IMG/VR virus record: IMGVR_UViG_3300017763_000006
Location: 1-64,000 of that record
Source: a virus
DNA length: 64,000 bases
Reading direction: 5' to 3' (one strand)
Below, piece by piece: positions 27,162-49,233 of the stretch (its first letter is position 1; each line of letters starts with the position of its first letter). The notes beneath the pieces were generated by a model. It was not told the origin of the DNA. It saw only the letters and a program-made list of their open reading frames with translations, and made no database searches. A program made the position numbers and the translations under genes.

Positions 27162-27592
27162 GTATGGACGACTTCGTACAAACACTCACAGAAGAACAAA
27201 AAGCTGCATTGATAAAAGCTTTAGGCGGTAACACAGAAGTTGAGTCAAGATGGCAACATGAAGAGCCAGTGTCAGAAGCTGTAGACGGACCACAAGAAGT
27301 AGAACAAACCCCACCTCCAGATATGAATCAGAGGTACGACGAATTCGTTATGAATAGGCAAAAAGAACTGGAGAAAGCTAGTAAGAGACCAGTTACAGCA
27401 AAAGAAAACGCATGGGTTGATACGGGAGAAGACCGCCATATTGAAACTCCTGAAACAGCCAGAACGCCTAGAAACAGACAGCCTCCTAAAATGAAAAGAG
27501 TTACCTGTAGTAAATGTTCTAGTATGGACATGGTAAATGAATCTATATTGTGTGGAGAGTTTTATAGGTGCAGTAGGTGCGTGGGCAAATAA
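27158..27592 (+). CDS. Protein with C-terminal zinc ribbon, 144 aa
   Basis: Residues 1-25 are a short helical head (DDFVQTLTEEQKAALIKALGG). Residues about 30-110 are polar, proline-rich and probably disordered. The end is a Cys4 ribbon: 'VTCSKCSSMDMVNESILCGEFYRCSRCVGK'-type spacing with CxxC at each side. It overlaps both neighbours by a few bases (ATGA, TAATG) and is translated with dnaB. It could link replication proteins; no family named. Confidence 0.62.
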   Translation: MSMDDFVQTLTEEQKAALIKALGGNTEVESRWQHEEPVSEAVDGPQEVEQTPPPDMNQRYDEFVMNRQKELEKASKRPVTAKENAWVDTGEDRHIETPETARTPRNRQPPKMKRVTCSKCSSMDMVNESILCGEFYRCSRCVGK

Positions 27593-29070
27593 TGGATAAA
27601 AAACTTTTTGACATTGGAGCAGAAAGAGCAGTGCTTTCTGGCTTAATGCAATACGGTGTGGATGCCTACATCTCTGTTGCAGATTTATTGTGTCATAGTA
27701 GCTTTGGCAGTGAAAATAACCAGATCATTTTTAAATGCCTTGAGTATACTATACAGCAAGATCAAAAGCCAGACATAGCAACTATTATTTCTGCCTCTGA
27801 AAAATTAGGCTTTTCTGAACAAGTCGGCACTAAGCAAGAGCTAAATTATATTAAATCACTACTTGACTTTCCAGTGAGTCAAGAAAATGTTCTTAGTTTT
27901 GCTGTACAAGTTAAGAAGTTTGAGTTTGCTCGTAAAATACAAAAGATAACGAACAAGGTACATCACGATGTTTCTAAAATAAATGGCAATGAAAGCATTG
28001 ACGAAATCGTCAACATACTAGAAGAACCAGTAACTGATTTCTTAAGAGAAGATGATGGCGGCGAAAACCCAGAAAAGATTGGAGAAGGGGCAGAAGATTA
28101 TGTCCGATTCTTATCAGAAAATAAGTGTGATATCCTTGGTATACCGACAGGGTTCTCAAGATACGACGAAGCCATTGGTGGTGGTTTGCGAAGAAAGTGT
28201 GTTGACCTTGTTTCTGCAAGACCCAAAGTTGGTAAGTCAGTATTCGCTGATAATGTGGCCCTTAATGTATCTTCACTAGACATACCAGTTCTAGTCCTAG
28301 ACACGGAAATGTCAAAAGAAGATCACCTACATAGGCTTATAGCCAACATGAGCGGTGTGCCTATCAATGAAATTGCAACAGGAAAATTTGTAGACGATCC
28401 TGTAAAAAATGACAAAATCCAAGAAGCTGTAGCCAAATTAGAATCAATACCTTATAGCTATATCAGTGTCGCTGGGAAACCATTTGAACAAATTATGAAT
28501 CTAATTCGTCGCTGGGTAGTTCAAGAGGTTAAGACAGACGAATCAGGTAAAACTAATGAATGCTTAATTATCTACGACTACTTAAAACTCATGTCTTCTT
28601 CATCTATCACAAACAATATACAAGAATACCAAGCGTTAGGATTCCAGATTACATCATTGCATAATTTATGTGTTAAACTAGACATACCTTGTCTATCCTT
28701 CGTGCAATTAAATCGTGACGGCATCACTAAAGAAAGCACAGATGCTGTTAGTGGATCTGACAGGCTTGTGTGGCTTTGTACTTCTTTTAGCATATTCAAG
28801 TCTAAGTCTCCTGAAGAAATAGCAGAAGATGGACCAAATGCTGGAAATAGAAAATTAGTACCTATTGTTTCTAGACATGGAGCTGGAATTGATGATGGAG
28901 ACTATATTAACATGCAGATGGTTGGATCTCATGCTAAATTATTAGAGCTACAAACAAGAAATGAGTTAAAGAATGCACCCGTAGGAGATACGGGGCTAGT
29001 GAGTACGTCAGCATTAAAAAATATTAAGATAGAAAATGAATCTGAAGAAAATCAAGAAAACACTGAATGA
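27592..29070 (+). CDS. dnaB: Replicative DNA helicase, DnaB-like
   Basis: A 492-aa helicase; I start at ATG 27592 in a TAATG overlap. The N-terminal domain begins 'FDIGAERAVLSGLMQ', typical of DnaB. Walker A 'ARPKVGKSVFA' has Lys215, 'VLDTEMSKEDHLHRLIANMSGV' is motif H1a, 'CLIIYDYLKLM' is Walker B, and 'SFVQLNRDG...VSGSDRLVW' gives the Gln and Asp/Arg finger motifs. It unwinds DNA at the fork with the adjacent primase. The Walker A site, a common intein insertion point (gp41-1 type), is uninterrupted. Confidence 0.9.
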   Translation: MDKKLFDIGAERAVLSGLMQYGVDAYISVADLLCHSSFGSENNQIIFKCLEYTIQQDQKPDIATIISASEKLGFSEQVGTKQELNYIKSLLDFPVSQENVLSFAVQVKKFEFARKIQKITNKVHHDVSKINGNESIDEIVNILEEPVTDFLREDDGGENPEKIGEGAEDYVRFLSENKCDILGIPTGFSRYDEAIGGGLRRKCVDLVSARPKVGKSVFADNVALNVSSLDIPVLVLDTEMSKEDHLHRLIANMSGVPINEIATGKFVDDPVKNDKIQEAVAKLESIPYSYISVAGKPFEQIMNLIRRWVVQEVKTDESGKTNECLIIYDYLKLMSSSSITNNIQEYQALGFQITSLHNLCVKLDIPCLSFVQLNRDGITKESTDAVSGSDRLVWLCTSFSIFKSKSPEEIAEDGPNAGNRKLVPIVSRHGAGIDDGDYINMQMVGSHAKLLELQTRNELKNAPVGDTGLVSTSALKNIKIENESEENQENTE

Positions 29071-30043
29071 CGATATAAAGACAGTTTTTAAAAAGTTAGA
29101 CATTGAATATGAAGTATTCAACGATAACATTTATTCTACCTGTCCAGTACATGAGGGTAGCGATAACCCAAGGGCTTTGTCTTACTCGATGTCTAAGGGT
29201 ATCTGGCGATGCTGGACTAGAAATTGTGAGCAACATCATAACAACGACGTATTTGGATTAATACAAGGAGTTCTGTCTAATAAAGAGGGAAAAGACTTAG
29301 AATTCAAAGATGCTCTAAGATGGGTATACCAAGAGTTTGGATTGGGAACTAGCATACAAGAAATAGAAGAGCAAGTAGATGATTTTTCACAAATGGTTAA
29401 TATGCTATCATGCAAAAAAAAGATTTACCAAGACAAGTCTATAGATATACCATGTAAAATAAGTAAAGCATCTGATTATTTTTATCATAGAGGTTTTAAA
29501 AAAACTACATTAAAACATTTTGATGTAGGAGATTGTCACGAAAAAGGTATAATGAATGAAAGAGCAGTAGTACCCATACATAATGACGATGGAAGTTTAG
29601 TAGTGGGCATGATTGGAAGATCTATTAAAGAATATAGAATTCCAAAGTTCTTAATATATCCAACCGGATTCGATAAAAGATGGTATCTATATAACTATCA
29701 CAGGGCAGCAGAGAAAGCAAAAGAGACTAAATGTTTATTTATATTAGAAGGACAAGGTGACGTTTGGAGAATGAAAGAAGCTGGAGTAGATAATGCAGTT
29801 AGCGTATTTGGAAAAAGTATTACTACTGAGCAAGAACAGAAAATATCTAAACTCTGCGCCACTCATCTAATAATACTTACGGATAATGATCAAGCTGGAA
29901 GAGAAGCTAAACTACAAATACATAGACAGCTAGGCAGGATGTATAGATTAACATTTCCAAAAATAGCCAATAAAGACGTAGGCGATATGAAGGTCACGCA
30001 AATCAAAACAGAAATTTTAAACAGTCTTAAAGGAACATACTGA
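29036..30043 (+). CDS. dnaG: DNA primase, DnaG-like
   Basis: A 335-aa short primase. An N-terminal zinc finger (Cys36, His39, Cys59, Cys64 in 'STCPVHEGSDNP' and 'WRCWTRNC') precedes a catalytic core with a Toprim domain: 'LFILEGQGDVWRMKEAG' (Glu near residue 237) and 'LIILTDNDQAGREA' (DxD near 281-283). It lacks the helicase-binding C-terminal domain of cellular DnaG, as in many phage primases. The start is 35 bases inside dnaB. Confidence 0.88.
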   Translation: MNLKKIKKTLNDDIKTVFKKLDIEYEVFNDNIYSTCPVHEGSDNPRALSYSMSKGIWRCWTRNCEQHHNNDVFGLIQGVLSNKEGKDLEFKDALRWVYQEFGLGTSIQEIEEQVDDFSQMVNMLSCKKKIYQDKSIDIPCKISKASDYFYHRGFKKTTLKHFDVGDCHEKGIMNERAVVPIHNDDGSLVVGMIGRSIKEYRIPKFLIYPTGFDKRWYLYNYHRAAEKAKETKCLFILEGQGDVWRMKEAGVDNAVSVFGKSITTEQEQKISKLCATHLIILTDNDQAGREAKLQIHRQLGRMYRLTFPKIANKDVGDMKVTQIKTEILNSLKGTY

Positions 30044-33231: not shown

Positions 33232-33492
33232 ATGAATTTTCACAAAAGATGGAATGAACACCTAAAAGAAAATAATATGACCTATTGGCAACACCTCAAG
33301 TTTGCCGTAGGTCATGGGTTGTGTTGTGTTAAAGCTGGTATATATTTATGCATACATGGCTTGATGCCTTGTTTTAGGCGTAGAGCCGGAAGTAGGTTGG
33401 TACGACGACTCAACAAAGACTTCACCGATCACAAGTACGATATCATAACAGAAAAAGCCAAGAAGAGGTCAGATAATGAGCCTAATAAATAA
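33232..33492 (+). CDS. DUF6356-like membrane-associated protein, 86 aa
   Basis: Start chosen at ATG 33232, just after the previous stop. The pattern 'NMTYWQHLKFAVGHGLCCVKAGIYLCIHGLMPCFRRR' matches, from memory, DUF6356 (Y-x-x-H-x-x-x-A...H-x-x-x-P), a short family of bacterial proteins with a hydrophobic core. The C-terminus is basic. It overlaps the PAP2-like gene, suggesting co-translation and a shared envelope role. Confidence 0.6.
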   Translation: MNFHKRWNEHLKENNMTYWQHLKFAVGHGLCCVKAGIYLCIHGLMPCFRRRAGSRLVRRLNKDFTDHKYDIITEKAKKRSDNEPNK

Positions 33493-34174
33493 AGTAGCTT
33501 CTATTATAAGTACGTCAAGCAACATTGATGACGTAGTATATTTAAAAAACAAAATTCAATATGACGATGATCTAAGAACCTTAGACATTGATCTAAAGAG
33601 TATTATACCAGCCCCACCCAAAAACAGTAGCAGCACAACAACTAGAGAATTAGTACAAACCTCAAAAGCAACTTTGTCTCGTACAAATGCTGAACATGAT
33701 CTAGTTTCTATAGTTGACCACGAACCTTTGTTTCTATTTTACGAATTTTGTAAAAAGAAAAATATAGTTTTTCCCACGATGAAATTTTTTGAAGCTTTTA
33801 ATATTATTGAACAATACTCTTTTGCTCTAAAGTATTTATACAACAGACCCAGACCAGAGCAACTAGCCCCTTATCACAATTTAGATATCAACGTAGTGTT
33901 TACAGAGACACACCATACACCCTCGTACCCTAGCGGTCACACTATTTACTCAGAACTTGCTGCACATATAGTTTCTGAAGAGTACCCAGAATACAAAAAA
34001 GATTTTTTTACTATATCAAACTATTGCGGACTAGCTAGAATACTACAGGGCGTACACTATGCTTCAGACAATGAAGCTAGCAAAATTGCACTAAGTAAGT
34101 TGTATCCATTATTAAAGGAGCTTGAAAATGAGAAATCAAAAAGAACCATCACGAATCCCACTGTCGGATCGTGA
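33476..34174 (+). CDS. PAP2-type phosphatase
   Basis: A 232-aa protein with the acid-phosphatase motifs in order: 'KYLYNRPRPEQLAP' (K-x6-RP, near residue 120-133), 'PSYPSGHTIYSELAAH' (PSGH) and 'ARILQGVHYASDNEAS' (R-x5-H-x3-D). Long hydrophobic helices are missing, so it looks like a soluble PAP2/haloperoxidase-fold phosphatase rather than a membrane lipid phosphatase. Substrates might be undecaprenyl, sugar or nucleotide phosphates. It lies among glycosyltransferase genes. Confidence 0.75.
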   Translation: MSLINKVASIISTSSNIDDVVYLKNKIQYDDDLRTLDIDLKSIIPAPPKNSSSTTTRELVQTSKATLSRTNAEHDLVSIVDHEPLFLFYEFCKKKNIVFPTMKFFEAFNIIEQYSFALKYLYNRPRPEQLAPYHNLDINVVFTETHHTPSYPSGHTIYSELAAHIVSEEYPEYKKDFFTISNYCGLARILQGVHYASDNEASKIALSKLYPLLKELENEKSKRTITNPTVGS

Positions 34175-34253
34175 ACCTACTAATGAACCAGTAAGACGGC
34201 CTCTTACACCTTTGACCGGAGACGAAAGGGAACAAGAACAGGATGAAAATTAA
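34128..34253 (+). CDS. Very small polar protein, 41 aa
   Basis: ATG 34128 has AAAGGAG upstream and overlaps the end of the PAP2 gene; the stop overlaps the next start. The product (MRNQKEPSRIPLSDREPTNE...) is polar, rich in Arg, Pro and Glu and probably disordered. No homology can be suggested. Confidence 0.45.
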   Translation: MRNQKEPSRIPLSDREPTNEPVRRPLTPLTGDEREQEQDEN

Positions 34254-35040
34254 AGTATTTGCTTTTCAGAAAGATGAAGACGATATACTTAGGGATTGGA
34301 TAGAATATCATAGCTATCTTTTTGGAAAAGAAAACATATATATAATTGACCATGATTCTAAAGACAGTAAGTCTATAATCACAAACAGTGGAGCTAACCT
34401 ACTTCACTTTTCTGGCCCCTTTGTTCACAATAAAGGTATTCAGTTAACTAAGGTCATGAATGATAATAAAAATTCATGTGACTTTGTAATACCTTTAGAT
34501 GTAGATGAATTTCTTATGACACAAGATGGAGGCGTAGAAAAAGAAGATGTGTTAGAATGTTTTAAAGACCTAAAGGGTTGTGGTGCTTACAAAATAGTTT
34601 CATATTCAATACCGGGGCATGATAAAGATCCACTCACTGAATTTACATCTGTAAGGGACAATCCTGATCATGGAAGACTTCGCAGATGGAAAACATTCTG
34701 GAGATCAAAAAACTTTGTAAGGACAGATCAAGGAAATCATGGCTGGGAAGAAGGCCCATACGAAAAAACAAAATTAGGAATGTTACACTTTCACGACAGA
34801 GGTTTTGAGCATTACAAAAGAAAATTTTTAAGGTGGCCTAAAGCTTATGGAGTAGTGGGCGATCAATTAAAGGGTGGCGCTCATTGGTACGAACAGTGGG
34901 AAGTAATTAAAGATATGAACAACAAAGAAATGTTTGAGCATTGGAAAAAAACTATTATTGCTCCAAAAAACAATGTAAGTAAATATGAATCATTCATGTT
35001 TAAAATAAAAGAATTAAGAAAACTAAGAGGGAAACAATGA
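34243..35040 (+). CDS. Glycosyltransferase, GT2-like (Glyco_tranf_2_4 type)
   Basis: A 265-aa GT-A protein. 'KVFAFQKDEDDILRDWIEYHSYLFG' is the typical lead of this group, 'IYIIDHDSKDSKS' the nucleotide strand, and 'FVIPLDVDEFLM' the DxD metal site (D-V-D-E). 'GRLRRWKTFWRSKNFVRT' and 'LGMLHFHDRGFEHYKRK' are acceptor-side features also seen in GT92-like proteins. It overlaps the next methyltransferase by four bases. Confidence 0.75.
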   Translation: MKIKVFAFQKDEDDILRDWIEYHSYLFGKENIYIIDHDSKDSKSIITNSGANLLHFSGPFVHNKGIQLTKVMNDNKNSCDFVIPLDVDEFLMTQDGGVEKEDVLECFKDLKGCGAYKIVSYSIPGHDKDPLTEFTSVRDNPDHGRLRRWKTFWRSKNFVRTDQGNHGWEEGPYEKTKLGMLHFHDRGFEHYKRKFLRWPKAYGVVGDQLKGGAHWYEQWEVIKDMNNKEMFEHWKKTIIAPKNNVSKYESFMFKIKELRKLRGKQ

Positions 35041-35582
35041 AGAATTACAAAGAAATCAGTGGATGGTTTAATTATGTTGATACGTTTGATTATTTAGTAA
35101 GCAACACTCCAGATGGAGGAACTTTTGTTGAATGTGGTGCATGGCTAGGTAAAAGCTCAAGTTATTTATGCAGTATTGCAGAAGCTAAAAACTTGAAAAT
35201 ATACATAGTTGATTCTTGGAAAGGATCTCCAACAAGATTAGCAACTACGCATAAGTTAGCTACAGAAACCGATATATTTGAAATTTTTAAATCAAATTTA
35301 GAAGGCGCAAATTATACAGCGATAAGAGACTTGTCGGTTAATGCATGTAAAAAATTTGAAGACAATTCATGCGACGTTGTATTTATAGACATGGATCACG
35401 AATACGAATCAGTAAATAAAGATATAGATCTTTGGTTTCCGAAGGTAAAAAAGAATGGCATAATTGCTGGTCATGACTATTCAGGTGGGTGGCCCGGAGT
35501 GATTAGAGCTGTTGATGAGCATTTTGGAAAATCTAATATCACTAAAATGGGGCAATGTTGGATATATAAAAAGGAAGCATAA
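35037..35582 (+). CDS. SAM-dependent methyltransferase (Methyltransf_24 type)
   Basis: A 181-aa enzyme: 'GTFVECGAWLGKSSSYL' is motif I, 'LKIYIVDSWKGSP' motif II, 'CDVVFIDMDHEYESVNKDIDLWFPKVKKNGIIAGHDY' covers the D-x-D-H metal-binding and product strand region. This type modifies cephalosporins, sugars or glycan ends. ATGA overlap with the preceding glycosyltransferase suggests one pathway. Confidence 0.8.
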   Translation: MKNYKEISGWFNYVDTFDYLVSNTPDGGTFVECGAWLGKSSSYLCSIAEAKNLKIYIVDSWKGSPTRLATTHKLATETDIFEIFKSNLEGANYTAIRDLSVNACKKFEDNSCDVVFIDMDHEYESVNKDIDLWFPKVKKNGIIAGHDYSGGWPGVIRAVDEHFGKSNITKMGQCWIYKKEA

Positions 35583-35585
35583 TAT

Positions 35586-36101
35586 ATGCATAAATCAGCA
35601 TACAAACATGCAGAAAATTTCTACAATAAATACTGCAAAGAAAATATAAAGAATAAAATAGTAATAGATATCGGATCTTTAGATGTGAATGGTACAGTAA
35701 ACCCAATATTTAAAGATGCTAAACAATATGTTGGCATAGATCAGTGCGCTGGTAAGAATGTAGATATAGAAGCTAGTTCTCACAGTATACCATTAGAAGA
35801 TCAACATTGTGATATTACTATGTCTTCATCTTGCTTTGAACATGATGATATGTTTTGGGTCTCTTTCTTGGAGATGTGTAGAATTACTAAACGTGGAGGA
35901 TACATATATGTACAAGCTCCGTCAGATGGAAAATACCACGCGCACCCAGTTGACAACTGGAGGTTCTATAAAGACTCTTGGGACGCGCTAAGAAAATGGG
36001 CAAAGTTAAATGATTATAACCTTGAATTAATTGAAGGATTTGTAGACGAAAAAACAGATGGACATTGGCACGACAGCATTGGAATTTATAGAAGAGTGTA
36101 A
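35586..36101 (+). CDS. SAM-dependent methyltransferase (Methyltransf_11-like)
   Basis: A 171-aa protein: 'KIVIDIGSLDVNGTVNPIF' is motif I, 'YVGIDQCAGKNVDI' motif II, 'SSHSIPLEDQHCDITMSSSCFEHDDMFWVSFLEMCRITKRGGYIYVQAP' covers motifs III-VI. 'DNWRFYKDSWDALRKWA' lies near the end. It is the last gene before the polymerase promoter. Acceptor unknown; neighbours favour a glycan. Confidence 0.78.
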   Translation: MHKSAYKHAENFYNKYCKENIKNKIVIDIGSLDVNGTVNPIFKDAKQYVGIDQCAGKNVDIEASSHSIPLEDQHCDITMSSSCFEHDDMFWVSFLEMCRITKRGGYIYVQAPSDGKYHAHPVDNWRFYKDSWDALRKWAKLNDYNLELIEGFVDEKTDGHWHDSIGIYRRV

Positions 36102-36160: not shown

Positions 36161-37720
36161 ATGAATTGGTTCCCGTTGCATAATTTCACACATTACAGCT
36201 TATTAAAAGGTTTCTCAAAGCCTACAGAGCTTGCCAAGATATGCGCTGATAATGATTACCCAGCCTGTGGTATCGCAGACTATAAGACTATATCTGGATG
36301 CGTTTCGTTTTATCAGGCTTGTAAGAAAGTTGGCATAAAGCCTATACTTGGATGTGCCTTCGACACCAATACTGTATTTGCAAAAAATAAAAAAGGTTGG
36401 TTTGACTTAATAGAACTAGTTTCTTCTATAGATGTATCTGGAGATTTAGACGATAAATTTTATAAAGAAGTTATGTCTAGAGATAATCTTATATCTGTAG
36501 AAAAAAATATATCTGCTAGCTATTATGTAAAATCAGAACAGGCCAGACTGCACAGAGTATTGCTATGTTCTGAACTAAAAACAAATCTACCAAAAATACA
36601 AAAACAAATACGAAAGGGAGAACTAGACAATAAATATTTAGAATATTTTACAAAAGAAGACAAGTTCGTACAGCCCCAACAAGTTACCAAACAGCTAGAA
36701 GAAATATATAACACCTGTGAAGAATATGATATTCTCAGTGGGCCAATGCTTCCTAAGTTTGTATGTCCAAACAATTTATCAGAAGAAGACTATCTAACCA
36801 ACATGGCTCGTGAAGGATATAAAAAGTTAGTAAAAAGCAAGGTGGGTAAAGATAAAGACAAACAGCAAGTCTATGGAGACAGATTTAGAAAAGAGTTAAA
36901 AGTAATTAAAGATGCAGACCTGTTTGGTTACTTTTTGATTGTACAAGATATTATTAGACACATAGAAAAAGATATGAGATGTTTAGCTGGGCCGGGAAGA
37001 GGGTCTGCTGCTGGTTGTTTAATATCATATCTGGTTGGCATTACTAAAATTGACCCTGTAGAACATGATCTATTATTTGAAAGATTCTACAATGCTGGTC
37101 GTAATACTGGAGGTCACGTTTCTCTGCCGGATATTGACATGGACGTTCCGGGCAAGAGAAGAGATGATGTTATAGATTATTTAAAAACTAAATATGGCAA
37201 AGACCATGTAAGCCAGATGATTACGTTTGGTAGATTGCAAGGACGAAGCGCTATTAAAGAAGTGCTTAGGATAAATGATGCTTGTTCTTTTGCAGAAATG
37301 AACGCTATAACAAAAAGCATACCAAACGAAGCTGACATATCAGATCAACTTGCAGAAATGGAAGACGAAGATAGATCAATTATAAGATGGTCCTTGCTAA
37401 ACCGTGCGGATGAGCTGCGAGACTTCTGCCATATTACAGAGGATGGAAAACTTGAGGGTGATTACGCTGAGTATTTTCAACAAGCGATTAATATAGAAGG
37501 AACATTTAAGACACAAGGCAAACACGCCGCTGGAGTAGTGATATCAAAAGATCCTCTCCACACTGTTTGCCCGATGGTTAAACAGAAAGGATCTGACGAA
37601 AAAATAGCGGGATTAGAAATGGCAGACCTAGAAGCTTTAGGTCATGTAAAGTTCGATGTTTTAGGAATTAACCTCTTAGACAAACTCATGAAAATTAAGG
37701 AACTAACTAATGGCAAATAG
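36161..37720 (+). CDS. dnaE: DNA polymerase III alpha, N-terminal half (PHP, palm, thumb)
   Basis: 519 aa. Residues 1-70 are a PHP domain ('LHNFTHYSLLKGFSKPTELA', 'GIADYK', 'GIKPILGCAF') in which the metal motif HxHxxYS reads H-N-F-T-H-Y-S and TDH reads ADY, so PHP chemistry is probably lost. The palm carries 'GPGRGSAAGCLISYLVGI' (about 276-293) and 'PDIDMDV' with Asp324 and Asp326; 'GKHAAGVVIS' and 'GLEMADLEALGHVKFDVLGINLL' follow, with Glu where the third acidic residue is expected. The protein stops just after KFDVLG, where normal DnaE runs on into the fingers. The rest is encoded from 38902. No intein residues occur at the end. Confidence 0.9.
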   Translation: MNWFPLHNFTHYSLLKGFSKPTELAKICADNDYPACGIADYKTISGCVSFYQACKKVGIKPILGCAFDTNTVFAKNKKGWFDLIELVSSIDVSGDLDDKFYKEVMSRDNLISVEKNISASYYVKSEQARLHRVLLCSELKTNLPKIQKQIRKGELDNKYLEYFTKEDKFVQPQQVTKQLEEIYNTCEEYDILSGPMLPKFVCPNNLSEEDYLTNMAREGYKKLVKSKVGKDKDKQQVYGDRFRKELKVIKDADLFGYFLIVQDIIRHIEKDMRCLAGPGRGSAAGCLISYLVGITKIDPVEHDLLFERFYNAGRNTGGHVSLPDIDMDVPGKRRDDVIDYLKTKYGKDHVSQMITFGRLQGRSAIKEVLRINDACSFAEMNAITKSIPNEADISDQLAEMEDEDRSIIRWSLLNRADELRDFCHITEDGKLEGDYAEYFQQAINIEGTFKTQGKHAAGVVISKDPLHTVCPMVKQKGSDEKIAGLEMADLEALGHVKFDVLGINLLDKLMKIKELTNGK

Positions 37721-38390
37721 AGATTACATCGTATTCGACTTTGAAACAGGAAGTCGTAACCCTCATAGAACACAACCAACACAAATAGCCGCAATAGCCC
37801 TAGACGGTCGAAATTTAGCCGTTAAGGGGTCATTTAATAGTGAGATAAAGCCCATACTAGATGACGAAAAAGCTTTAGAAGCTGGACTAGACCCCATAGA
37901 AGACGGAGCATTAAAAGTCACTGGTAAGAATCGTAAAGATCTAGCAAAAGCTCCAGCCTTAAAATCAGTATGGAATAAGTTTACTAAATTTGTAGACCAA
38001 TATAATTGGAAGGGCGAACCATTTTTTGCTCCTATTCCAGTGGGATATAATATCATTGGGTTTGACATGCCGATAATCAATAGACTATGTGAACAATTTG
38101 GTCAGTGGGACAAGAGCAGGAGTCAGCAAAAACTGTTTAGTAAAGTATATAAAGTAGACCTTATGGATAATATTTTCATGTGGACAGAGGGTGATCCAAG
38201 TGTAAGGTCGATTAGTATGGACTCTCTACGAGAAAGAATGGGCCTATCTTCAGAAAATGCACACGATGCCTTGCAAGATGTGAAGGATACGGCTAATATC
38301 TTTATAAAGATGTTGAAGACTCATCGGGCAGTCTACCAAGAAATTGAATTTGAAAAGGCATTTGCAAATGGACGAACATACGTATCATGA
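37710..38390 (+). CDS. dnaQ: DEDDh 3'-5' exonuclease, epsilon-like proofreader
   Basis: A 226-aa exonuclease with all five DEDDh residues: Asp10 and Glu12 in 'VFDFETGS', Asp119 in 'VGYNIIGFDMPIIN', and His184 and Asp189 in 'ENAHDALQDVKDTANIF'. It would supply proofreading for the polymerase that surrounds it. ATG overlaps the end of the first polymerase half and AAGGA lies upstream, so its translation is coupled to that half. Its place inside the polymerase gene is unusual. Confidence 0.88.
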   Translation: MANRDYIVFDFETGSRNPHRTQPTQIAAIALDGRNLAVKGSFNSEIKPILDDEKALEAGLDPIEDGALKVTGKNRKDLAKAPALKSVWNKFTKFVDQYNWKGEPFFAPIPVGYNIIGFDMPIINRLCEQFGQWDKSRSQQKLFSKVYKVDLMDNIFMWTEGDPSVRSISMDSLRERMGLSSENAHDALQDVKDTANIFIKMLKTHRAVYQEIEFEKAFANGRTYVS

Positions 38391-38901
38391 TTTGCCATAC
38401 GGTTTGAAAAAAACATATAAAATTACTCCTAATGCAGAAGCAGCAGAGTTTTTACAAGCAGAAGTTCAAGAATTTTTTGGATATAAATCTAAATCCAAGA
38501 GAGAGAAATATGCTGATATATGGATTAACGAAAACTATGGCATCAATGTTAAAACAGACAATCTAAATTCTCAACAGAACAAAGGTCGTCTTTGTACAGC
38601 AGAAGTTAATCAGTGGCTAAAAAATGAAAATAACAAATTATCATTTATATTCATTGAGTATACTAACGACAATGGTGATCTAGAAATACAAAGCGTACAA
38701 ACAAGAAACATAGAAGAGGTAGAATATGAAATAAGTAACCAAGGCAAAGGTCTACTACAACCAAAAAGGTACAGAAACAAAGTAGTGTTTAGATCAACCA
38801 TATCTAGATCGGAATGGATGGAAGAATTTAAGATTAAGTATGCGGATTTTATTGACAAGCAAATAAAACGATTTGAAGAAAAGAAAAAACATTGGTGTTA
38901 G
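38368..38901 (+). CDS. Nuclease-like ORF between polymerase halves
   Basis: A 177-aa protein (ATG 38368, AAAAGG upstream; a TTG at 38344 also opens the frame). 'YKSKSKREKYADIWINENYGINVKTDNLNSQQNKG' has a D-x(n)-V-K-T core like PD-(D/E)XK nucleases, followed by 'NKLSFIFIEYTNDNGDLEIQSVQ' (hydrophobic strands) and a basic helical tail (YADFIDKQIKRFEEKKKHWC). The stop touches the next ATG. It may be a free-standing endonuclease linked to the gene break. It is less like the Vsr/EDxHD proteins at 26288 and 47300, so the assignment is tentative. Confidence 0.6.
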   Translation: MDEHTYHDLPYGLKKTYKITPNAEAAEFLQAEVQEFFGYKSKSKREKYADIWINENYGINVKTDNLNSQQNKGRLCTAEVNQWLKNENNKLSFIFIEYTNDNGDLEIQSVQTRNIEEVEYEISNQGKGLLQPKRYRNKVVFRSTISRSEWMEEFKIKYADFIDKQIKRFEEKKKHWC

Positions 38902-40461
38902 ATGGAATATAATGACAAAAAAACTTGGCAGCTTTTTGAAGAAGGTAAAACAAAAGGTGTCTTTCAGCTAGAAAGTAACCTTGGTAAATCTTGGTCGAAG
39001 AAACTTGCTCCAAATAATATTGAAGAGTTATCAGCTTTAATTGCGATTATTCGCCCCGGATGCTTAAAAGCATTTGTTGATGGTAAATCTATGACTCAAC
39101 ATTTTATTGATCGTAAGCATGGTCGTGAAGAGGTAACATATTTGCACGAATCATTGGAAGAGGTATTATTGCCTACGTATGGAGTGCTAGTATACCAAGA
39201 ACAATCCATGCGTATTGCTCAAAAAATAGCTGGCTTCAATCTTGAAGAAGCAGATGAATTACGAAAAGCTATTGGTAAGAAGAAAGCAGACCTTATGGCT
39301 AAAGTTAAAAAGAAATTTATAGCTGGAGCTAAGAGAGTCAAAATTGTGAACAAGGAAGAGGCAGAACAAATATTTGGATGGATTCAAGCTTCAGCTAGAT
39401 ACGCATTCAACAAGTCACATAGTATATCTTATGCTGTCTGTTCATACTGGAGCGCATACGAAAAGGCTCATAACACAGAGGCTTTTTTTCTGTCTTATTT
39501 GTATTACGCCAATGAAAAGCAAGATCCTCACCAAGAAGTATATGAGTTAATATCAGAAGCAAAGCTTTTTGACATACAAGCTAGAACACCAAGCCTAATT
39601 AATTTTGAAAATAAGTTCAATGTTAGGAATCATAAAATTTACTTTGGGATTAAAGACATTAAATCGTTGACAGGTAAAACTGGAGACAAAGCTATGAGTG
39701 CGATAAAAGAAGCTGAAGAAGATATGAATAAAGATATCTCTAAATTTACATGGATTGAGATACTACTATTTTTTGGCTCAAAAGTTAGTTCTACAGCCTT
39801 CAAAGCGTTAGCTTCCATAGGGTTCTTTAGAGACTTTAATGGTAAAGTATCTAGAAATAAAGCTTTGTATGATTACGAGATTTATAGAATTTTGACCAAG
39901 GCAGAACAGAAATGGCTTCAAAATAATTATCAAGATAAAAAGTGGACAAATTTAATTGACGCACTTACCGATTTAGCCCCAACCAAAAAACAGGGAGGTG
40001 GCACTAGCAAGATAGAAAGAAAACAGCTAGTAGAGAATGAAATACAACTGCTCATAGATCCACCATACGACTTGGAAGATGATGCAGCTTGGATTATTGA
40101 TCAAGAGACTAGGCTGTTAGGATGTCCAGTAACAATGACTAGAATAGAACGGTCGGACACATCTGCCGCCAATACCACATGCAAAGAAATTGTCAATGGA
40201 AAGAAAGGCAAAAACTTGTGCGTAGCAGCTAACATACAGAGACTAGCTGAGTATAAAATCAAAAAGGGCGAATCAAAAGGCCAAAACATGGCATTTTTAA
40301 CAATAGAAGATGACACCTGCATACTGGACAGTGTTGTAGTATTCCCCAGAATAAAAGAAAAGTATAAATATATATTATATGAGGGGAACAATTTAATATT
40401 CTGCGGCTATGTTAATAAAAATGATTCCTCGTTGATTGTGGAAAATGTTCACGAAGTTTAG
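38902..40461 (+). CDS. dnaE: DNA polymerase III alpha, C-terminal half (fingers, OB)
   Basis: 519 aa continuing the polymerase. It starts 'NDKKTWQLFEEGKTKGVFQLES', where DnaE has its conserved GVFQLES, then 'ALIAIIRPGCL', 'HFIDRKHGREEVTYLHESLEEVLLPTYGVLVYQEQSMRIAQKIAGF', 'ADELRKAIGKKK' and 'FNKSHSISYAVCSYWSAYEKAH'. The C-terminal third (about 420-519, 'NLCVAANIQRLAEYKIKKGESKGQNMAFLTIEDDT') is an OB-type domain. The ATG follows the previous TAG with no ribosome site, so it depends on coupling. No split-intein C fragment precedes the host sequence. Confidence 0.9.
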   Translation: MEYNDKKTWQLFEEGKTKGVFQLESNLGKSWSKKLAPNNIEELSALIAIIRPGCLKAFVDGKSMTQHFIDRKHGREEVTYLHESLEEVLLPTYGVLVYQEQSMRIAQKIAGFNLEEADELRKAIGKKKADLMAKVKKKFIAGAKRVKIVNKEEAEQIFGWIQASARYAFNKSHSISYAVCSYWSAYEKAHNTEAFFLSYLYYANEKQDPHQEVYELISEAKLFDIQARTPSLINFENKFNVRNHKIYFGIKDIKSLTGKTGDKAMSAIKEAEEDMNKDISKFTWIEILLFFGSKVSSTAFKALASIGFFRDFNGKVSRNKALYDYEIYRILTKAEQKWLQNNYQDKKWTNLIDALTDLAPTKKQGGGTSKIERKQLVENEIQLLIDPPYDLEDDAAWIIDQETRLLGCPVTMTRIERSDTSAANTTCKEIVNGKKGKNLCVAANIQRLAEYKIKKGESKGQNMAFLTIEDDTCILDSVVVFPRIKEKYKYILYEGNNLIFCGYVNKNDSSLIVENVHEV

Positions 40462-40508: not shown

Positions 40509-40841
40509 ATGAATAATTGTTGTTTTACGGGTTATCTTGTTGAAAATCCTAGAGCTAGGCATGTAAACAATGTCTTGTTGGTAGAATTTACAATGGTAAT
40601 TTATAACTATAGAAGGACCAAATCTACTGGAGAAAAAAGCAGAATACCTACGTACATTGTGTGTGAAGCTTGGCACACGGGCGCAGAGACAATAGAAAAG
40701 TTTGCAACTAAAGGAACTAAGATGACAGTTCAGGCCACAGCTAAAAATATAGACAAGGACCACGATGATATAATTTTTAGAATTAGCGAATTTGATATTT
40801 GTAAAAACGAAGATTTTGACGATTGGACGGATTTGCAATGA
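40509..40841 (+). CDS. Second SSB-like OB-fold protein
   Basis: A 110-aa protein with the SSB strand order: 'CCFTGYLVENPRARHVNNVLLVEFTMVIYN', 'SRIPTYIVCEAWHTGAETIEKFATKGTKMTVQATAKNI' and a final beta strand 'IIFRISEFDIC'. It lacks the long tail of classic SSB but ends acidic (NEDFDDWTDLQ). AGGAG precedes ATG. Lying next to the polymerase, it may act at the fork or coat a special intermediate. It differs strongly from the SSB at 5909. Confidence 0.72.
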   Translation: MNNCCFTGYLVENPRARHVNNVLLVEFTMVIYNYRRTKSTGEKSRIPTYIVCEAWHTGAETIEKFATKGTKMTVQATAKNIDKDHDDIIFRISEFDICKNEDFDDWTDLQ

Positions 40842-42493
40842 GAAAGAAAAAGATTCTTTTCTGTAGTGAAGCAACATTCTTAAATACTGGTTACGCAACA
40901 TACACCAGAGAAATCATGAATTATCTTCATAGCACCGGAAAATACGAATTAGCAGAATTAGGATCGTATGGAGAACAGGATGATCCGAGAGCTAGAAATA
41001 TACCGTGGACGTATTTTTCAGCCATGCTTCCTAAAGATCCTAGCCAAAGGGAACAAGAAATATTTAAATCTAAATATACCATGCAGTTTGGAGAGTATGC
41101 ATTTAAAGATGTATGTTTACAATTCCGTCCAGATATAGTGTGCGACATAAGAGACTTCTGGATGTTAGAATTTCAGGAAAGATCTCCATACAGAAAATTT
41201 TATAAGTGGTGCATAATGCCAACGGTTGACGCAGAACCACAAGCCACTCAGTGGATACAAACATATAGTTCTGCTGATGCTTGTTTAACTTACTCTGATT
41301 GGTCTGGAGAGTTATTAAAAAGGCAAAGCGATGGAGCAATAAATTATATAGGATCTGCACCTCCATCTGCACACTCAGCTTACTCAGTAATAAAAGACAA
41401 GAAAGAGTGCAGAAAAGAACTGGGATTACCAGAAAACGCAAAGATTATTGGCACTGTAATGAGAAATCAAAGGAGAAAATTATATCCTGATTTATTTAAA
41501 ACCTTCAAAATGATTTTAGAAACTGTTCCAGATCCAGAAAATTATTTGCTATATTGTCATACTAGTTTTCCAGACATGGGATGGGATTTGCCAGAACTAA
41601 TGATTAAAGAGGGCATAGCTTCAAAAGTAATTTTTACTTATATATGCATAGAAACAAAAAAAACATATTCCACATTCTTTGCTGGTCCTACTTCTATTTC
41701 TCCGTTTACCAATAAAATGTCAGGAGTAATAGCTAGCGTACAACAAGGTGCTTCGTATGATAGCTTATCAACAATCATGTCCTCTTTCGATCTTTATGTC
41801 CAGTATGCTAATTCTGAAGGTTTTGGATTGCCACAAGTTGAAGCTGCTGCGTGTGGTGTTCCAGTAGCTGCCGTAGACTATTCTGCAATGCATAGCGTAA
41901 TAAATCAGCTTGGAGGATTATCTTTAAAAACTAAGGCTCTATACAAAGAAATGGAAACTGGCTGCATGAGGGCTGTTCCAGACAATGAATATGCCGCAGA
42001 AGAAATATGCAAGTTTTTTAAACTAAGCGAAGATATTAGAAAAAACACAGGTAAAGATATTAAGCAAAATTTTCTTAAACATTTTCAATGGGACAAAAGC
42101 GGTCAGGTCTGGGAGAAATACTTCGATTCTGTAGAGATAGAACCAGATGAAAAAACGTGGTTATCTCAGCCAGATATACAAAGACCCGCAGCTAAACCAG
42201 AAGAATCAGAATTTAATAGTGTTACAGAAATGACTAACTTTTTAATAGACGAAGTTTTGCGTCAACCAGAACACAAAAATTCTTTTTTCAGTCTCAGGCT
42301 CAGAAGAGATTTACTTTATAGATTTTCAACTAGTGCTGTCGATGGAATATATATGAACGATAGCTCAATGGTTGGAGACCCTAGCAAAAAAGCAAACTTA
42401 TTTAATTTTGATAAAGCATACGAAATAATGAAGAATAGAAGACTAGAAATTAATATGTATGAAGACATAAGGAAAAGGGCGTTTAATCTATGA
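40838..42493 (+). CDS. Glycosyltransferase GT4, long form
   Basis: A 551-aa GT-B enzyme starting at ATG 40838 in an ATGA overlap. 'KILFCSEATFLNTGYATYTREIMNYL' is the N-terminal glycine-loop region, 'YIGSAPPSAHSAYSVIKDKKECRKELGLPENAKIIGTVMRNQRRKLYPDLF' the interdomain link, and 'NSEGFGLPQVEAAACGVPVAAVDYSAM' the EX7E motif. The last 130 residues form an extra helical domain (TEMTNFLIDEVLRQPEHKNSFF). First gene of the eight-gene glycan cluster. Confidence 0.8.
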   Translation: MRKKKILFCSEATFLNTGYATYTREIMNYLHSTGKYELAELGSYGEQDDPRARNIPWTYFSAMLPKDPSQREQEIFKSKYTMQFGEYAFKDVCLQFRPDIVCDIRDFWMLEFQERSPYRKFYKWCIMPTVDAEPQATQWIQTYSSADACLTYSDWSGELLKRQSDGAINYIGSAPPSAHSAYSVIKDKKECRKELGLPENAKIIGTVMRNQRRKLYPDLFKTFKMILETVPDPENYLLYCHTSFPDMGWDLPELMIKEGIASKVIFTYICIETKKTYSTFFAGPTSISPFTNKMSGVIASVQQGASYDSLSTIMSSFDLYVQYANSEGFGLPQVEAAACGVPVAAVDYSAMHSVINQLGGLSLKTKALYKEMETGCMRAVPDNEYAAEEICKFFKLSEDIRKNTGKDIKQNFLKHFQWDKSGQVWEKYFDSVEIEPDEKTWLSQPDIQRPAAKPEESEFNSVTEMTNFLIDEVLRQPEHKNSFFSLRLRRDLLYRFSTSAVDGIYMNDSSMVGDPSKKANLFNFDKAYEIMKNRRLEINMYEDIRKRAFNL

Positions 42494-43599
42494 AAATCTT
42501 ATATATTGCACACTACAAAGAGTCATCTGGATGGTCTAATGCCGCTATACAAAATGTATTAGCACTACGCAGCGCTGGCTTAGACGTTGTATGTAGAGAC
42601 ATAAAGCTAACGAATAAAGAACATACTCCCGATCCAGTAATAGAGGAATTAGAGCGTAAAGACCTGAAGGGCGTTACCGATTGCATACAACACGTATTGC
42701 CTCACCACATATGCGGAACTGAAAAATTTTCAGGTAAAAATATTTCTCATTACGTGGCTGAGTCTATGTTTACTCAAAAAAATACTTGGCACACATTTTT
42801 AGATTTAACAGATGAAGTGTGGGTTCCGAACGATACTCTAAAAGAAAATACCAAACAATTTGTCAATAAACCAGTACATACTATTCCATATGCTTTTGAT
42901 ACATCTGTTTATCAAAAAGAATACCAAAAAATAGATTTAGACCATCATAACAGCTCATTTAAGTTTTATACTATAGCTGATATTAACGAACGAAAAAATA
43001 TTAAATCAATAATAAGGTGCTACTATCATACGTTTAAATTTTATGAAAATACCGTACTAATACTTAAGATATCCAAATACGGAGTTCCAGAAGAAACCTT
43101 GAGGCAATCTATAGGTCAAATGTGCCAAGAGATACAAAATGAAATGAGGATGTATAAAGACGTTGGAAGATATCCACCTATTAGAATTTTTTGTGAACGA
43201 GTACCAACGGACACTATATATTCAATTCACCGAAGCTGTGATTGTTTCGTTGGCGTTTCACATGGGGAAGGTTGGTCTATACCAGCATTTGACGCTATGT
43301 GCTTTGGGAACAAGCCAATATGCAGCGACGAAGGTGGGCCAAAAATGTTTATAGATAAAAATGATAAGACTTCAGGATCATTGATTTCTGGATCTTACAG
43401 TATATGCAATCAATCTGACAGTGCTTTTGCGCATATATTTACTGGATCAGAATTCTGGTTTTCTCCTAGCGAGAAAAAGGTTTGTGAAACAATGAGAGAA
43501 AGATATAATAATCGTGAACGACACAAATCACCTTGGGAATTAGGTAAAAAATATTCTCACAAAGTTGTAGGACAACAAATGGAAGAGCTTTTAAAATGA
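42490..43599 (+). CDS. Glycosyltransferase GT4
   Basis: A 369-aa GT-B enzyme: 'ILYIAHYKESSGWSNAAIQNVLALRSAGLDVVCRDI' (N-terminal nucleotide/acceptor loop), 'HTIPYAFDTSVYQ' and 'FKFYTIADINERKNIKSIIRCYYHTF' (C-domain start), and 'GVSHGEGWSIPAFDAMCFGNKPICSDEGG' as the donor motif, with Glu then Ala where EX7E has its second Glu. This is similar to the 40838 and 7956 genes. ATGA overlaps both neighbours. Confidence 0.78.
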   Translation: MKILYIAHYKESSGWSNAAIQNVLALRSAGLDVVCRDIKLTNKEHTPDPVIEELERKDLKGVTDCIQHVLPHHICGTEKFSGKNISHYVAESMFTQKNTWHTFLDLTDEVWVPNDTLKENTKQFVNKPVHTIPYAFDTSVYQKEYQKIDLDHHNSSFKFYTIADINERKNIKSIIRCYYHTFKFYENTVLILKISKYGVPEETLRQSIGQMCQEIQNEMRMYKDVGRYPPIRIFCERVPTDTIYSIHRSCDCFVGVSHGEGWSIPAFDAMCFGNKPICSDEGGPKMFIDKNDKTSGSLISGSYSICNQSDSAFAHIFTGSEFWFSPSEKKVCETMRERYNNRERHKSPWELGKKYSHKVVGQQMEELLK

Positions 43600-44081
43600 A
43601 AACATTACAACTATTTATGTCTGATGTTAACTTGGATAACAATAATATACTCGTAATAGGACAGGGCGTTCTATCTAATGAAATTATGGAGACCAATCAT
43701 AATTTTTACATAATGACAGAAGAAAAAATAGATAACCCGTTTGAAAATTTACATCAAATAACATCTGGGCAAATACCTACTTCTATTGGCTTTGATCTTA
43801 TCATAATGCAAGATTTTAATGAACAATCTTTAAGAATTCAAGAGGGTGTGTCCAAAAGACTTAATGTGCCAACAGTCAGATTATACAGAGATGGACCACC
43901 AGAATCTGTAAATCCTCAAAATAAAGAAATCTTTAAAAGATTCTCTGGTGATATTAATGTATTTTTTGACATTCTTAACTACCAAAGGTGGATAGTAAAT
44001 CCAGAAGCTACAACAGAAATAATGACAGACGAAACGTCCAGCAAATGGAATGAAGTTTTTCAATTAGTACGTAAAGGATAA
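43596..44081 (+). CDS. Hypothetical cluster protein, 161 aa
   Basis: An alpha/beta protein: 'NILVIGQGVLSNEIMETNHNFYIMTE', 'FDLIIMQDFNEQSLRIQEGVSKRLNVPTVRLYRDGPPESVNP', 'GDINVFFDILNYQRWIVN'. The pattern resembles the N-terminal half of a GT-B glycosyltransferase without its donor domain. It may be a partner subunit of its neighbours. ATGA overlap upstream; the next gene follows after three bases. Confidence 0.55.
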   Translation: MKTLQLFMSDVNLDNNNILVIGQGVLSNEIMETNHNFYIMTEEKIDNPFENLHQITSGQIPTSIGFDLIIMQDFNEQSLRIQEGVSKRLNVPTVRLYRDGPPESVNPQNKEIFKRFSGDINVFFDILNYQRWIVNPEATTEIMTDETSSKWNEVFQLVRKG

Positions 44082-44084
44082 AAT

Positions 44085-44504
44085 ATGAATTTAAATATAA
44101 CATGGGACGAAAAACACGATATAGACAATTACATCAATATTCATGTCAGTGAAAACGACTATTTAGAAAAAATAAAGAAAATACCAGACGCTGGCTGCAA
44201 AGTAATTCATGTGTCAGAAGGGGCTTATTTACTAGATTATAAGAGTGTTTTTGAATTATTGCAAATGTGCGTAACAAAACTAAGAATGAACGGAAGAATT
44301 TCTATATCTGTATTTAATTTTGATTTAATATGCGCTGATTATATTGGCGGCTCGTTAGAATCGGAAGTTCTTAGTCGATATTTATCAAATATGAATAGCA
44401 ATGTAAGATATGACGAAGTAAGTCGAATTTTTTATCAAAATAATATCAAACTACAAGGCATAGATAGAGCAGAATACTATCAAGTGCTACACGGAAGTAG
44501 ATAA
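44085..44504 (+). CDS. Methyltransferase-fold-like protein, 139 aa
   Basis: 'CKVIHVSEGAYLLDYKSVFELLQMCVTKLRMNGRISISVFNFDLICADYIGG' resembles the C-terminal part of a Methyltransf_11 protein (product strand after 'lrpgG'), but no SAM-binding motif I is present, so it is likely degenerate or non-catalytic. AAAGGA precedes ATG. It probably has a structural or accessory role in the glycan cluster. Confidence 0.5.
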   Translation: MNLNITWDEKHDIDNYINIHVSENDYLEKIKKIPDAGCKVIHVSEGAYLLDYKSVFELLQMCVTKLRMNGRISISVFNFDLICADYIGGSLESEVLSRYLSNMNSNVRYDEVSRIFYQNNIKLQGIDRAEYYQVLHGSR

Positions 44505-44505
44505 T

Positions 44506-45258
44506 ATGAGAAGATCTAAGTGTGTTACTACAACAAAAAAAACAAGAAGAAGTAGAAAGTATGATGACTTTATTACTATAGTCTTGTTGCACGATCAAAT
44601 AATTAACAGAATGAGGTGTCACGAACCCATATGTTTTATTGAGCTTAATGATCAACAAAAATTAATAGACAAACAAATACAAGCAATAAACAGCAGATTT
44701 AAAAACTATGAGCTAATTATATCTATAGGTAATTATGCAGATAAAATCTATGATCATATAAAAAAGAAACATAAAAACAAATCCATAAGACTCATAGAAA
44801 ATATGAATTATATGGACACTAATTCCTGCGAAAGTATTAGGCTTTGCATCCACAATACAAATAACGACAAAATACTTGTTATAGACGGAAATTTATGTTT
44901 TAACGACAAAGTGTTTGACAACTTAGATTTTAACAAATCGTTTGCCTTGGTAAATAAAAACAATGAAGAGAGTTTAGAAATTGGAGTAAATGTACACAAC
45001 GAAAAGATACAATTTTTGTGCTATGGAGCTAGTCAAAAGTGGTCTGAAATATTCTTTTTAAAGGGTAGTAAAATAATACTTGATTTAGAAAGCACACTAA
45101 ACAAAAAATCTTTTAAGAAAAAATTCTGGTTTGAGGCTATAAATGAATTAGTAGCCAACCACAACATTGCTGGATTTATAAACAAAAGTGAAATACTTAA
45201 AATAAAAAATATTAAAACATACAATATAGCTAGGAGACAAAATGAAATTCTTGATTGA
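44506..45258 (+). CDS. GT-A-like or nucleotidyltransferase-like protein, 250 aa
   Basis: 'DFITIVLLHDQIINR' then 'LIDKQIQAINSRFKNYELIISIGNYADKIYDHI' and 'NDKILVIDGNLCFNDKVFDNLDF' follow the order of sugar-nucleotide-binding GT-A folds, with 'IDGNLCF' near the metal site, but without a clean DxD. A basic N-terminus (SKCVTTTKKTRRSRKYD) is added. It may be a divergent glycosyltransferase or a sugar nucleotidyltransferase. It is part of the cluster and overlaps the next gene. Confidence 0.55.
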   Translation: MRRSKCVTTTKKTRRSRKYDDFITIVLLHDQIINRMRCHEPICFIELNDQQKLIDKQIQAINSRFKNYELIISIGNYADKIYDHIKKKHKNKSIRLIENMNYMDTNSCESIRLCIHNTNNDKILVIDGNLCFNDKVFDNLDFNKSFALVNKNNEESLEIGVNVHNEKIQFLCYGASQKWSEIFFLKGSKIILDLESTLNKKSFKKKFWFEAINELVANHNIAGFINKSEILKIKNIKTYNIARRQNEILD

Positions 45259-46111
45259 CTCATATAGCAACCCAGTAAATAGTACGCAATCTATGTATTT
45301 TCACCATCATATAAATGCGATGGAAGAACATGAGTCTTACATAACAAGCCCGTCTTTGCCGCTTTTTGACACTCTTGACGCATTTGGCCCTGACGTATAC
45401 ATAACATCTGCTAAGACTTTAAGATGGGACTATGTAGAATATATCAAAGATACCGGGTCAGAAATTAAGACATTTATAAGCCTTGATGATACTAAATTAG
45501 GTAATATACATAGTGTGGTAGAAACTTTAAAAGAAAACAATATTAAAGCAAGGTTTTTCTTAAACGGAAGTACGCAGATTGGATTAAAATCTTTAAAAAT
45601 TTCTACTATTCCAATTCTTCCAGCTATAGATAGCAATTTAAATATTTACTTTAATGAGTCTCAAAGATACCAGTGGAAAAATAAAATAGATTATCTTATA
45701 GTTTCTAGCTCTGTTGAGAATTTGCACATACCATCGTCTATAGGGAATAATAGCACCTTTCATATATATTCTTCAGATGGCAAGGGAGATTTGCTTGAAA
45801 CAATAGTGACTTGCAATAACGAATTATTTCATAATTACCATAATATTATTTTCGACAATTTAGATTTAGGTGTAAGCCAAATGTTTTTACAAGCTATAAT
45901 TAGCGGAACTCCAACGTATTATTTTGATCCCAACGGTAATCATGATGAAATGTTATCTAGGATACTAAAAACTGAGCAAACATTAAATTGGTTAGATAAA
46001 TCTAAAGTTACCGATTTTTCAGACATAAGAAAACACATTCAAGAAAAACACAAATCAGAAAATAGAGTCAAATCACTACTTTCGCAACTACCACAGGTGT
46101 GCCATGCTTAA
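45242..46111 (+). CDS. Putative GT-B glycosyltransferase, divergent
   Basis: A 289-aa protein opening 'KFLIDSYSNPVNSTQSMYFHHHINAME' (similar to GT-B acceptor loops), then 'FGPDVYITSAKTLRWDYVEYIKDTG', and near the end 'LDLGVSQMFLQAIISGTPTYYFDPNGNHDEML', the position of a GT-B donor-site helix (A-x-x-x-G-x-P). The EX7E Glu is absent. AGGAG precedes ATG. Probably a distant family member or scaffold. Confidence 0.55.
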   Translation: MKFLIDSYSNPVNSTQSMYFHHHINAMEEHESYITSPSLPLFDTLDAFGPDVYITSAKTLRWDYVEYIKDTGSEIKTFISLDDTKLGNIHSVVETLKENNIKARFFLNGSTQIGLKSLKISTIPILPAIDSNLNIYFNESQRYQWKNKIDYLIVSSSVENLHIPSSIGNNSTFHIYSSDGKGDLLETIVTCNNELFHNYHNIIFDNLDLGVSQMFLQAIISGTPTYYFDPNGNHDEMLSRILKTEQTLNWLDKSKVTDFSDIRKHIQEKHKSENRVKSLLSQLPQVCHA

Positions 46112-46853
46112 ACAAGATAGAATACAAGTGCATATGCACCTATATTATAAAGATCCATCTATTTATTTGATGGACAAAATAAGACAGAAATGGGATGGAA
46201 GAGTTAATATATCCTTAAACGACGATGGAGAAGCTAATGATACAATTGTAGAATATGCACAAAAAATATTTCCAGAAGTGCGTACCGTTACAACTCCAAA
46301 CTTAGGAAATGATCAAATAGGTTTTAAAAAATCTATCGCCACAAACAAAGAGTCTGGCAAAGATTGGATATTTTATGTTCATGACAAATCTCAAGATAAA
46401 CAGAAATGGGTAGATGACATAGTAGACCCAATAATAAATCAAGAAGAAGTAGTAGATGAATTAATAGAAAAAGACGAATATGGAATTATATCATCTGCTA
46501 AAAGATGTAACAAAATATTTGATGAAGAATATCTTATAGAATTTAGTAAAAAATGCAAGCTTTCAGAAAAGAATTTAGTTGTAGGGTCAAGACATACTCT
46601 TGTGTGGTTAAGAGAATTACAATACATATTGTACGATATTCATGGGTTCATAGATAGAAAAAATATCAATTTTCAGTTTACTGCTGGAACTATGTTTCTA
46701 ATTAACGAAGATATCGTCAAGCTGTCACATGATTGTATACATGAAAATTATTTTGAAAAACAATACAGACCAGATGGAAAAGTCGAACACGCATTAGAGA
46801 GATTTTATTATTATGTTTCAGCGTGTCTTCGTAAAAAAATAATGTTTATATAA
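46104..46853 (+). CDS. Rhamnan synthesis F (RgpF)-like protein
   Basis: A 249-aa protein with 'IQVHMHLYYKDPSIYLMDKIRQKWDG' at the N-terminus, 'VRTVTTPNLGNDQIGFKKSIA' where RgpF has an N-x-G-x-D-x-x-x-F segment, 'DWIFYVHDKSQDKQKW' in place of the 'HxK' region, and 'FTAGTMFLINEDIVKL' near the end (G-x-M-F/W motif). RgpF-type enzymes transfer deoxy-sugars in streptococcal and O-antigen polysaccharides. It supports a polysaccharide-like product for the cluster. Confidence 0.68.
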   Translation: MLKQDRIQVHMHLYYKDPSIYLMDKIRQKWDGRVNISLNDDGEANDTIVEYAQKIFPEVRTVTTPNLGNDQIGFKKSIATNKESGKDWIFYVHDKSQDKQKWVDDIVDPIINQEEVVDELIEKDEYGIISSAKRCNKIFDEEYLIEFSKKCKLSEKNLVVGSRHTLVWLRELQYILYDIHGFIDRKNINFQFTAGTMFLINEDIVKLSHDCIHENYFEKQYRPDGKVEHALERFYYYVSACLRKKIMFI

Positions 46854-49172: not shown

Positions 49173-49203
49173 AACCATTCCAGTGAGGGGAAAGTGAATG
49201 GTG

Positions 49204-49233
49204 GGAGGGGCTTAATCGCCCCTCCTTTTTTTT
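49204..49233 (+). terminator. Strong rho-independent terminator between convergent genes
   Basis: GGAGGGGC (49204-49211) and GCCCCTCC (49218-49225) enclose a 6-nt loop and are followed by eight T. A further stem CCATTC/GAATGG (49175-49180 / 49196-49201) lies just upstream. It ends the plus-strand block. The reverse strand has no T-tract, so the converging minus-strand transcript is not clearly stopped here. Confidence 0.92.

Follow-up and report, generated by a model that had tools for sequence, protein, structure and literature searches.

A 64,000-nt stretch of viral DNA (hereafter, the window; positions 1 to 64,000 of the 94,543-base virus record IMGVR_UViG_3300017763_000006) very probably encodes a replicative C-family DNA polymerase (DnaE, Pol III alpha) as two polypeptides that assemble non-covalently, accompanied by a separate DEDDh proofreader. 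Positions 36161-40461 are filled by four plus-strand open reading frames (ORFs), exactly where a first reading of the letters alone (hereafter, the sequence-only reading) had placed them, and domain matches on both outer ORFs identify them as the DnaE halves that it had proposed. The ORFs are labelled N (N-half gene), X (DEDDh exonuclease gene), M (orphan ORF) and C (C-half gene), and L numbers denote loci:

36161..37720, plus strand: N, DnaE N-half, 519 amino acids (aa), with a PHP domain whose metal site is degenerate, palm, thumb and the first fingers helix
37710..38390, plus strand: X, DEDDh 3'-5' exonuclease, 226 aa (RNase_T/DEDDh match, 1.7e-14)
38368..38901, plus strand: M, orphan ORF occupying the X/C junction, 177 aa from ATG 38368 or 185 aa from TTG 38344
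38902..40461, plus strand: C, DnaE C-half, 519 aa, with fingers, HhH and OB fold

N matched PHP (E 5.6e-17) and DNA_pol3_alpha (3.8e-69) and terminates with KFDVLGINLLDKLMKIKELTNGK, and C starts with MEYNDKKTWQLFEEGKTKGVFQLES at a start codon abutting the stop of the preceding ORF. The latter matched DNA_pol3_finger (1e-48) and, weakly, HHH_6; its OB region, past which the chain terminates, is backed by PHROG 405 (positions 627-1073) and by Foldseek across the whole chain. Placed on E. coli alpha, N ends at about residue 575 and C begins at about 589, near the start of the fingers and past the palm and thumb. The sequence-only reading had ended N right after KFDVLG and begun C just before GVFQLES; N in fact extends 17 residues (~20) beyond the first motif, and C begins 18 residues upstream of the second. 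The proposed separation of palm and thumb from fingers and OB essentially stands, with the break about 15-25 residues inside the fingers instead of exactly at their border. All three catalytic aspartates (equivalents of E. coli D401, D403 and D555) are on N, and the triad is kept in all complete alignment rows. The N end and the C start both fall within some 35-50 residues of low conservation, so that the cut costs the protein no conserved block. The two ORFs tile an intact protein in the breakpoint table, as do genes in pieces, and the palm Asp triad, fingers, PHP, HhH and OB that define a DnaE-type enzyme are present on the two chains jointly. AlphaFold models of each half alone were confident (predicted local distance difference test, pLDDT, 80 and 85) and matched structures of Pol III alpha from end to end; they were built on alignments of 17-18 sequences, and because their whole-chain root-mean-square deviation to Protein Data Bank structures is large, presumably reflecting domain movement, only the fold assignment was taken from them.

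IMG/VR was scanned with the two halves individually and with an alignment. Both halves were found in at least 157 loci and were joined in none (0/157). The gene-order search that the sequence-only reading had suggested thus recovered the order N, X, C, with the same break, in at least 107 distinct loci (near-copies removed at 95%), a number far above chance and with the split shared down to about 40% identity. X lies between the halves in all loci of the window's clade (clade A) that have both. At least 566 relatives of C were confirmed by the alignment scan among those listed, so this large group of uncultivated phages may be larger still. For N, X and C alike, most comparisons among relatives gave a ratio of non-synonymous to synonymous substitution (dN/dS) of 0.01-0.13, and purifying selection on both halves is strong. 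N and C distances within clade A are tightly correlated (r = 0.93; 0/999 permutations). No PolA or PolB family polymerase was detected in the window record and 20 related records (21 in total), no sliding clamp with PF02768 in 16 records, and no cellular or prophage relative of C by a close-relative scan of one genome per species. There is practically no chance that the polymerase is really continuous or dead, the split being an error of assembly or sequencing or the mark of a recent pseudogene: the window is a single contig and the record of one isolate, Serratia phage KKP 3709, does appear broken by frameshifts, but the recurrence in distinct and divergent loci, the low dN/dS, the conserved catalytic residues and the lack of any joined gene in close relatives all argue otherwise.

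The same break was found in a second group of records, 43-181 kb long (clade B), but there 5-12 kb separates the gene for N (about 785 aa) from that for C, whose length is about 615-650 aa, or more if it carries inteins; both halves, apart, were detected in 12/12 clade B records tested. Glycosyltransferase- and methyltransferase-like genes lie between them in the clade B record read in detail. In a tree of N plus C with bacterial and phage DnaE (a quick tree, with long outgroup branches), A and B form one clade with an SH-aLRT (approximate likelihood ratio test) support of 100, B being the sister of A, and no continuous homologue appears within the lineage. The rows with a degraded PHP site form one clade inside A (SH-aLRT 99). 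Given the full support for A plus B and the position of B beside A, the simplest reading of these sequences is a single split in the common ancestor of both clades.

DnaE as two genes is familiar from cyanobacteria, where, as with fractured genes, a split intein at the FNKSH region joins the halves again; fractured genes from marine metagenomes reportedly use split inteins too (Dassa and colleagues, cited in the sequence-only reading). The contrast that the reading drew with these systems holds: the break here is at another site and without an intein. No intein block was found at either border of the break (N end, C start), and no group I or group II intron was matched by Rfam in 34-43 kb of the window or in L020. 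In compact relatives the end of N shares 8-11 bp with X (11 bp in the window), and X and C overlap or lie about a base apart (e.g., L002, L020, L066 and L086), so there is no room for pieces of a split intein or split intron. Both junctions are empty in this way, the genes overlapping or nearly abutting, in 34 of the 107 distinct loci listed. Covalent rejoining of the halves by protein trans-splicing through a split intein, or by RNA trans-splicing through a split intron, is therefore extremely improbable, even though cyanobacterial DnaE is a split-intein case and inteins do occur in these polymerases, where they are readily visible elsewhere than at the break.

One such element is a genuine split intein at PGRG/S inside the N half of L027 (L027:3160-3600), whose N-intein starts CFLPDTRV and ends in a stop, and whose C-intein restarts MKLTKKKV and ends VEGLGVHN/S. 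Contiguous in-frame inteins are present in the clade B C halves of L194, L195, L197, L199 and L201, at three sites (GPLE/C, LRK/C and FNK/C...CN/SHA), with two inteins in one C half; the FNK site lies near the cyanobacterial DnaE intein site. The DnaE genes of three named phages (L184, L225 and L231) are interrupted by ORFs in the conserved blocks FNKGH, LRKAIG and LFQIE, and those in MMB025 and KLEB27-3 are annotated as endonuclease. These are probably intron or intein sites; Rfam gave no match for the three interrupted genes.

In the two-chain enzyme that we propose, N would supply the PHP domain, the palm with all three catalytic aspartates and the thumb, C would supply the fingers, HhH and OB, and the two would assemble non-covalently. 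We infer their binding from the strong selection on both halves and because no other replicative polymerase was found. It is very unlikely that the halves instead serve separate functions (C being, for example, regulatory or DNA-binding) and rebuild no replicase. The distance between the clade B genes would suit such a division, but N and C are inherited jointly, no second replicative polymerase was detected, and a C-family palm without fingers lacks, in established structures, much of the nucleotide and template site.

The DEDDh exonuclease would join N and C as proofreader, like epsilon in E. coli Pol III, a role suggested by the position of X and by the pattern of PHP sites. The motifs of X in the window are D-x-E, GFD and HDALQD; Exo I and Exo III motifs were found in 90/90 loci checked and the strict Exo II pattern in 75/90, in agreement with the sequence-only reading, and X is predicted to be a trans-acting proofreader. 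The nine PHP metal ligands are known from M. tuberculosis DnaE1 (PMC5636811). Clade B members with complete N have 9/9 of these, early clade A members mostly 8/9 (Cys to His; one has 6/9) and crown clade A members 0-2/9, with 1/9 in the window, where the PHP domain lacks the ligands of an active exonuclease. A PF00929 DEDDh gene was detected in 11/11 clade A records versus 1/10 clade B records, there elsewhere in the genome. The relatives thus apparently record a polymerase exchanging its PHP proofreader for a separate exonuclease, which the sequence-only reading had missed. After a single split in the A/B ancestor, the PHP site would have decayed later in clade A, which has X between the halves, and clade B, which lacks such an exonuclease and has its halves far apart, would have kept its PHP site. 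The implied order puts the split first, the exonuclease, in A's ancestor, next and PHP decay last; alternatively, the exonuclease may have been lost in clade B. A stronger version, which we hold only tentatively and consider rather unlikely, is a three-subunit replicase in which X is an obligate partner that took over PHP proofreading and perhaps bridges the halves, with clade B, early clade A and crown clade A as successive steps from cis to trans. For bacterial DnaE, mutual exclusion of PHP and epsilon proofreading has been discussed and is unsettled (PMC3919608).

X is the constant occupant of the break, and M, private to the window, only happens to sit in an insertion hot spot, a distinction likewise absent from the sequence-only reading. 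That reading had called M nuclease-like; by motif DIWINENYGINVKT, judged by eye alone, it is possibly a PD-(D/E)XK nuclease, but it matched no Pfam, PHROG or NCBIfam family. M, which probably starts at ATG 38368, is absent from the other loci and had no relative among the viral contigs or phage records searched. Many relatives have an endonuclease at a junction. The N/X gap is occupied by an HNH family or by a 163-aa family with PD-(D/E)XK-like motifs, which also adjoins unrelated genes in other phages, and the X/C junction by EndoVII-like proteins in 22 of 42 occupied cases, the remainder being HNH proteins or others. Only part of the occupants were recognised as nucleases, and short ORFs and modification-type genes occur as well. 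The flanks of L022 and L023 are almost identical, with an HNH gene at N/X in one and nothing in the other. A DUF1559 prepilin-like gene lies inside the X/C gap at L047:3491-4474 and L048:3704-4777; such genes are typical of Planctomycetota, and this one is a host hint for this subgroup.

The junctions serve as a landing site for free-standing homing-type nucleases, which may well have broken the gene in the manner of the T4-like genes in pieces. A nuclease-caused fracture and a rearrangement later exploited by nucleases are about as likely, judging from these patterns. One form of the latter concerns the origin only and is compatible with a two-subunit enzyme: a dnaE-exonuclease unit would have been duplicated in tandem or rearranged, with complementary loss, and nucleases would have invaded the broken place only later. 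We give this somewhat less than even chances. It fits the exonuclease, not a nuclease, being the constant occupant and the unrelated glycan genes between the clade B halves, and comparable doubt has been expressed about gp43 in phages 25 and 44RR (PMC2988022). On the other hand, no remnant copies of N or C were found, nuclease families turn up repeatedly at the two junctions, and L022 and L023 form a pair with and without an occupant.

Several points weigh against the picture of a two-chain replicase with its own proofreader and a nuclease-driven origin. The two-piece state could be tolerated and not useful, and recombination or repair could be the true task of the exonuclease. Few evolutionary events underlie the PHP/exonuclease pattern, and since the records are viral contigs, some of them incomplete, the absence of the exonuclease from clade B is unproven. 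The early clade A site (Cys to His) may already be inactive, because PolC with one altered PHP ligand is inactive (PMC5636811). Many phages with empty junctions have no nuclease, and no intermediate with a nuclease but without the exonuclease was found among the relatives.

Intein-free split phage polymerases are already known, including a minimal Pol III alpha, so the arrangement is less unprecedented than the sequence-only reading had implied. Split gene 43 of Aeromonas phages 25 and 44RR and split nrdA of Aeh1 are genes in pieces, and gp43A and gp43B from phage 25 purify together and show activity (PMC2988022). These resemble the present case as two-polypeptide replication enzymes without splicing, with a homing endonuclease or untranslated spacer between the pieces; they are, however, a B-family polymerase or a ribonucleotide reductase (RNR) in few phages, whereas here a C-family enzyme is split across a large clade with an exonuclease gene as constant occupant. 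The minimal Pol III alpha of group 2.2 jumbo phages (Iyer et al. 2021, PMC7824862) is likewise two genes without an intein, but that minimal core is cut between its NTP-binding and Mg/DNA-binding parts, and the phages concerned encode PolB as well. The enzyme described here shares neither that break nor the absent domains nor PolB, being near full length (PHP to OB), broken at palm/fingers and apparently the sole replicative polymerase. The DNA polymerase of an OM43 phage is another intein-free split phage enzyme (PMC10580990). For split dnaE in phages, the literature yielded only the jumbo-phage case, plus other polymerases; the full-length form, the break site, the extent and the exonuclease/PHP series appear new.

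Among sampled isolates, 59/60 were matched in one piece, and individual records show a split at the same place in one phage and elsewhere in another. Rossellomorea phage phiT1 (gp20/gp18; PV767480) has the same break (E. coli 574/576) with a short ORF between, but this is a 49-aa ORF in place of the exonuclease, the PHP ligands are 9/9, and the enzyme groups with intact Bacillus-phage DnaE. Because of this grouping the phiT1 split is apparently independent, and the site was seemingly used twice; a close-relative scan found three weak relatives of the phiT1-like split in other viral contigs. DnaE of Cellulophaga phage phiST also occupies two adjacent genes (gp044/gp045), cut instead between the PGRGS and PDIDTD motifs. 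Serratia phage KKP 3709 was discarded as a split DnaE, its gene being broken into several frames. In Gordonia phage Terapin (L226) the PHP domain (gene 65) is apart from the polymerase part (gene 67), with a small ORF between.

Other replication genes in the window include:

40509..40841, plus strand: single-stranded DNA-binding protein, conserved as the gene after C in most relatives
27577..29070, plus strand: DnaB-like replicative helicase, part of the replisome context
29036..30043, plus strand: Toprim primase, part of the replisome context

Genes for a RecA-like protein, a class II RNR and PhoH are also present. Glycosyltransferase- and methyltransferase-like genes and a PAP2 phosphatase-like gene flank the polymerase operon (33476-36101 and 40823-46853), with glycosyltransferase-like genes downstream of C in most relatives too. 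A free-standing HNH/homing endonuclease-like gene (PHROG 559, 9084) lies at 47300-48067 and a putative tail-fibre protein of 1172 aa with an Mtd_N domain and RCC1 repeats at 12967-16485. Around 49000-50000 a sign change in GC skew coincides with the switch of gene orientation to the minus strand.

A full-length C-family replicase can persist as two pieces in many phages and through long divergence, with a break where the isolate phiT1 was apparently cut independently. The break offers a hinge for building split polymerases, and the two clades provide a natural series for the question of whether PHP and epsilon-type proofreading are mutually exclusive.
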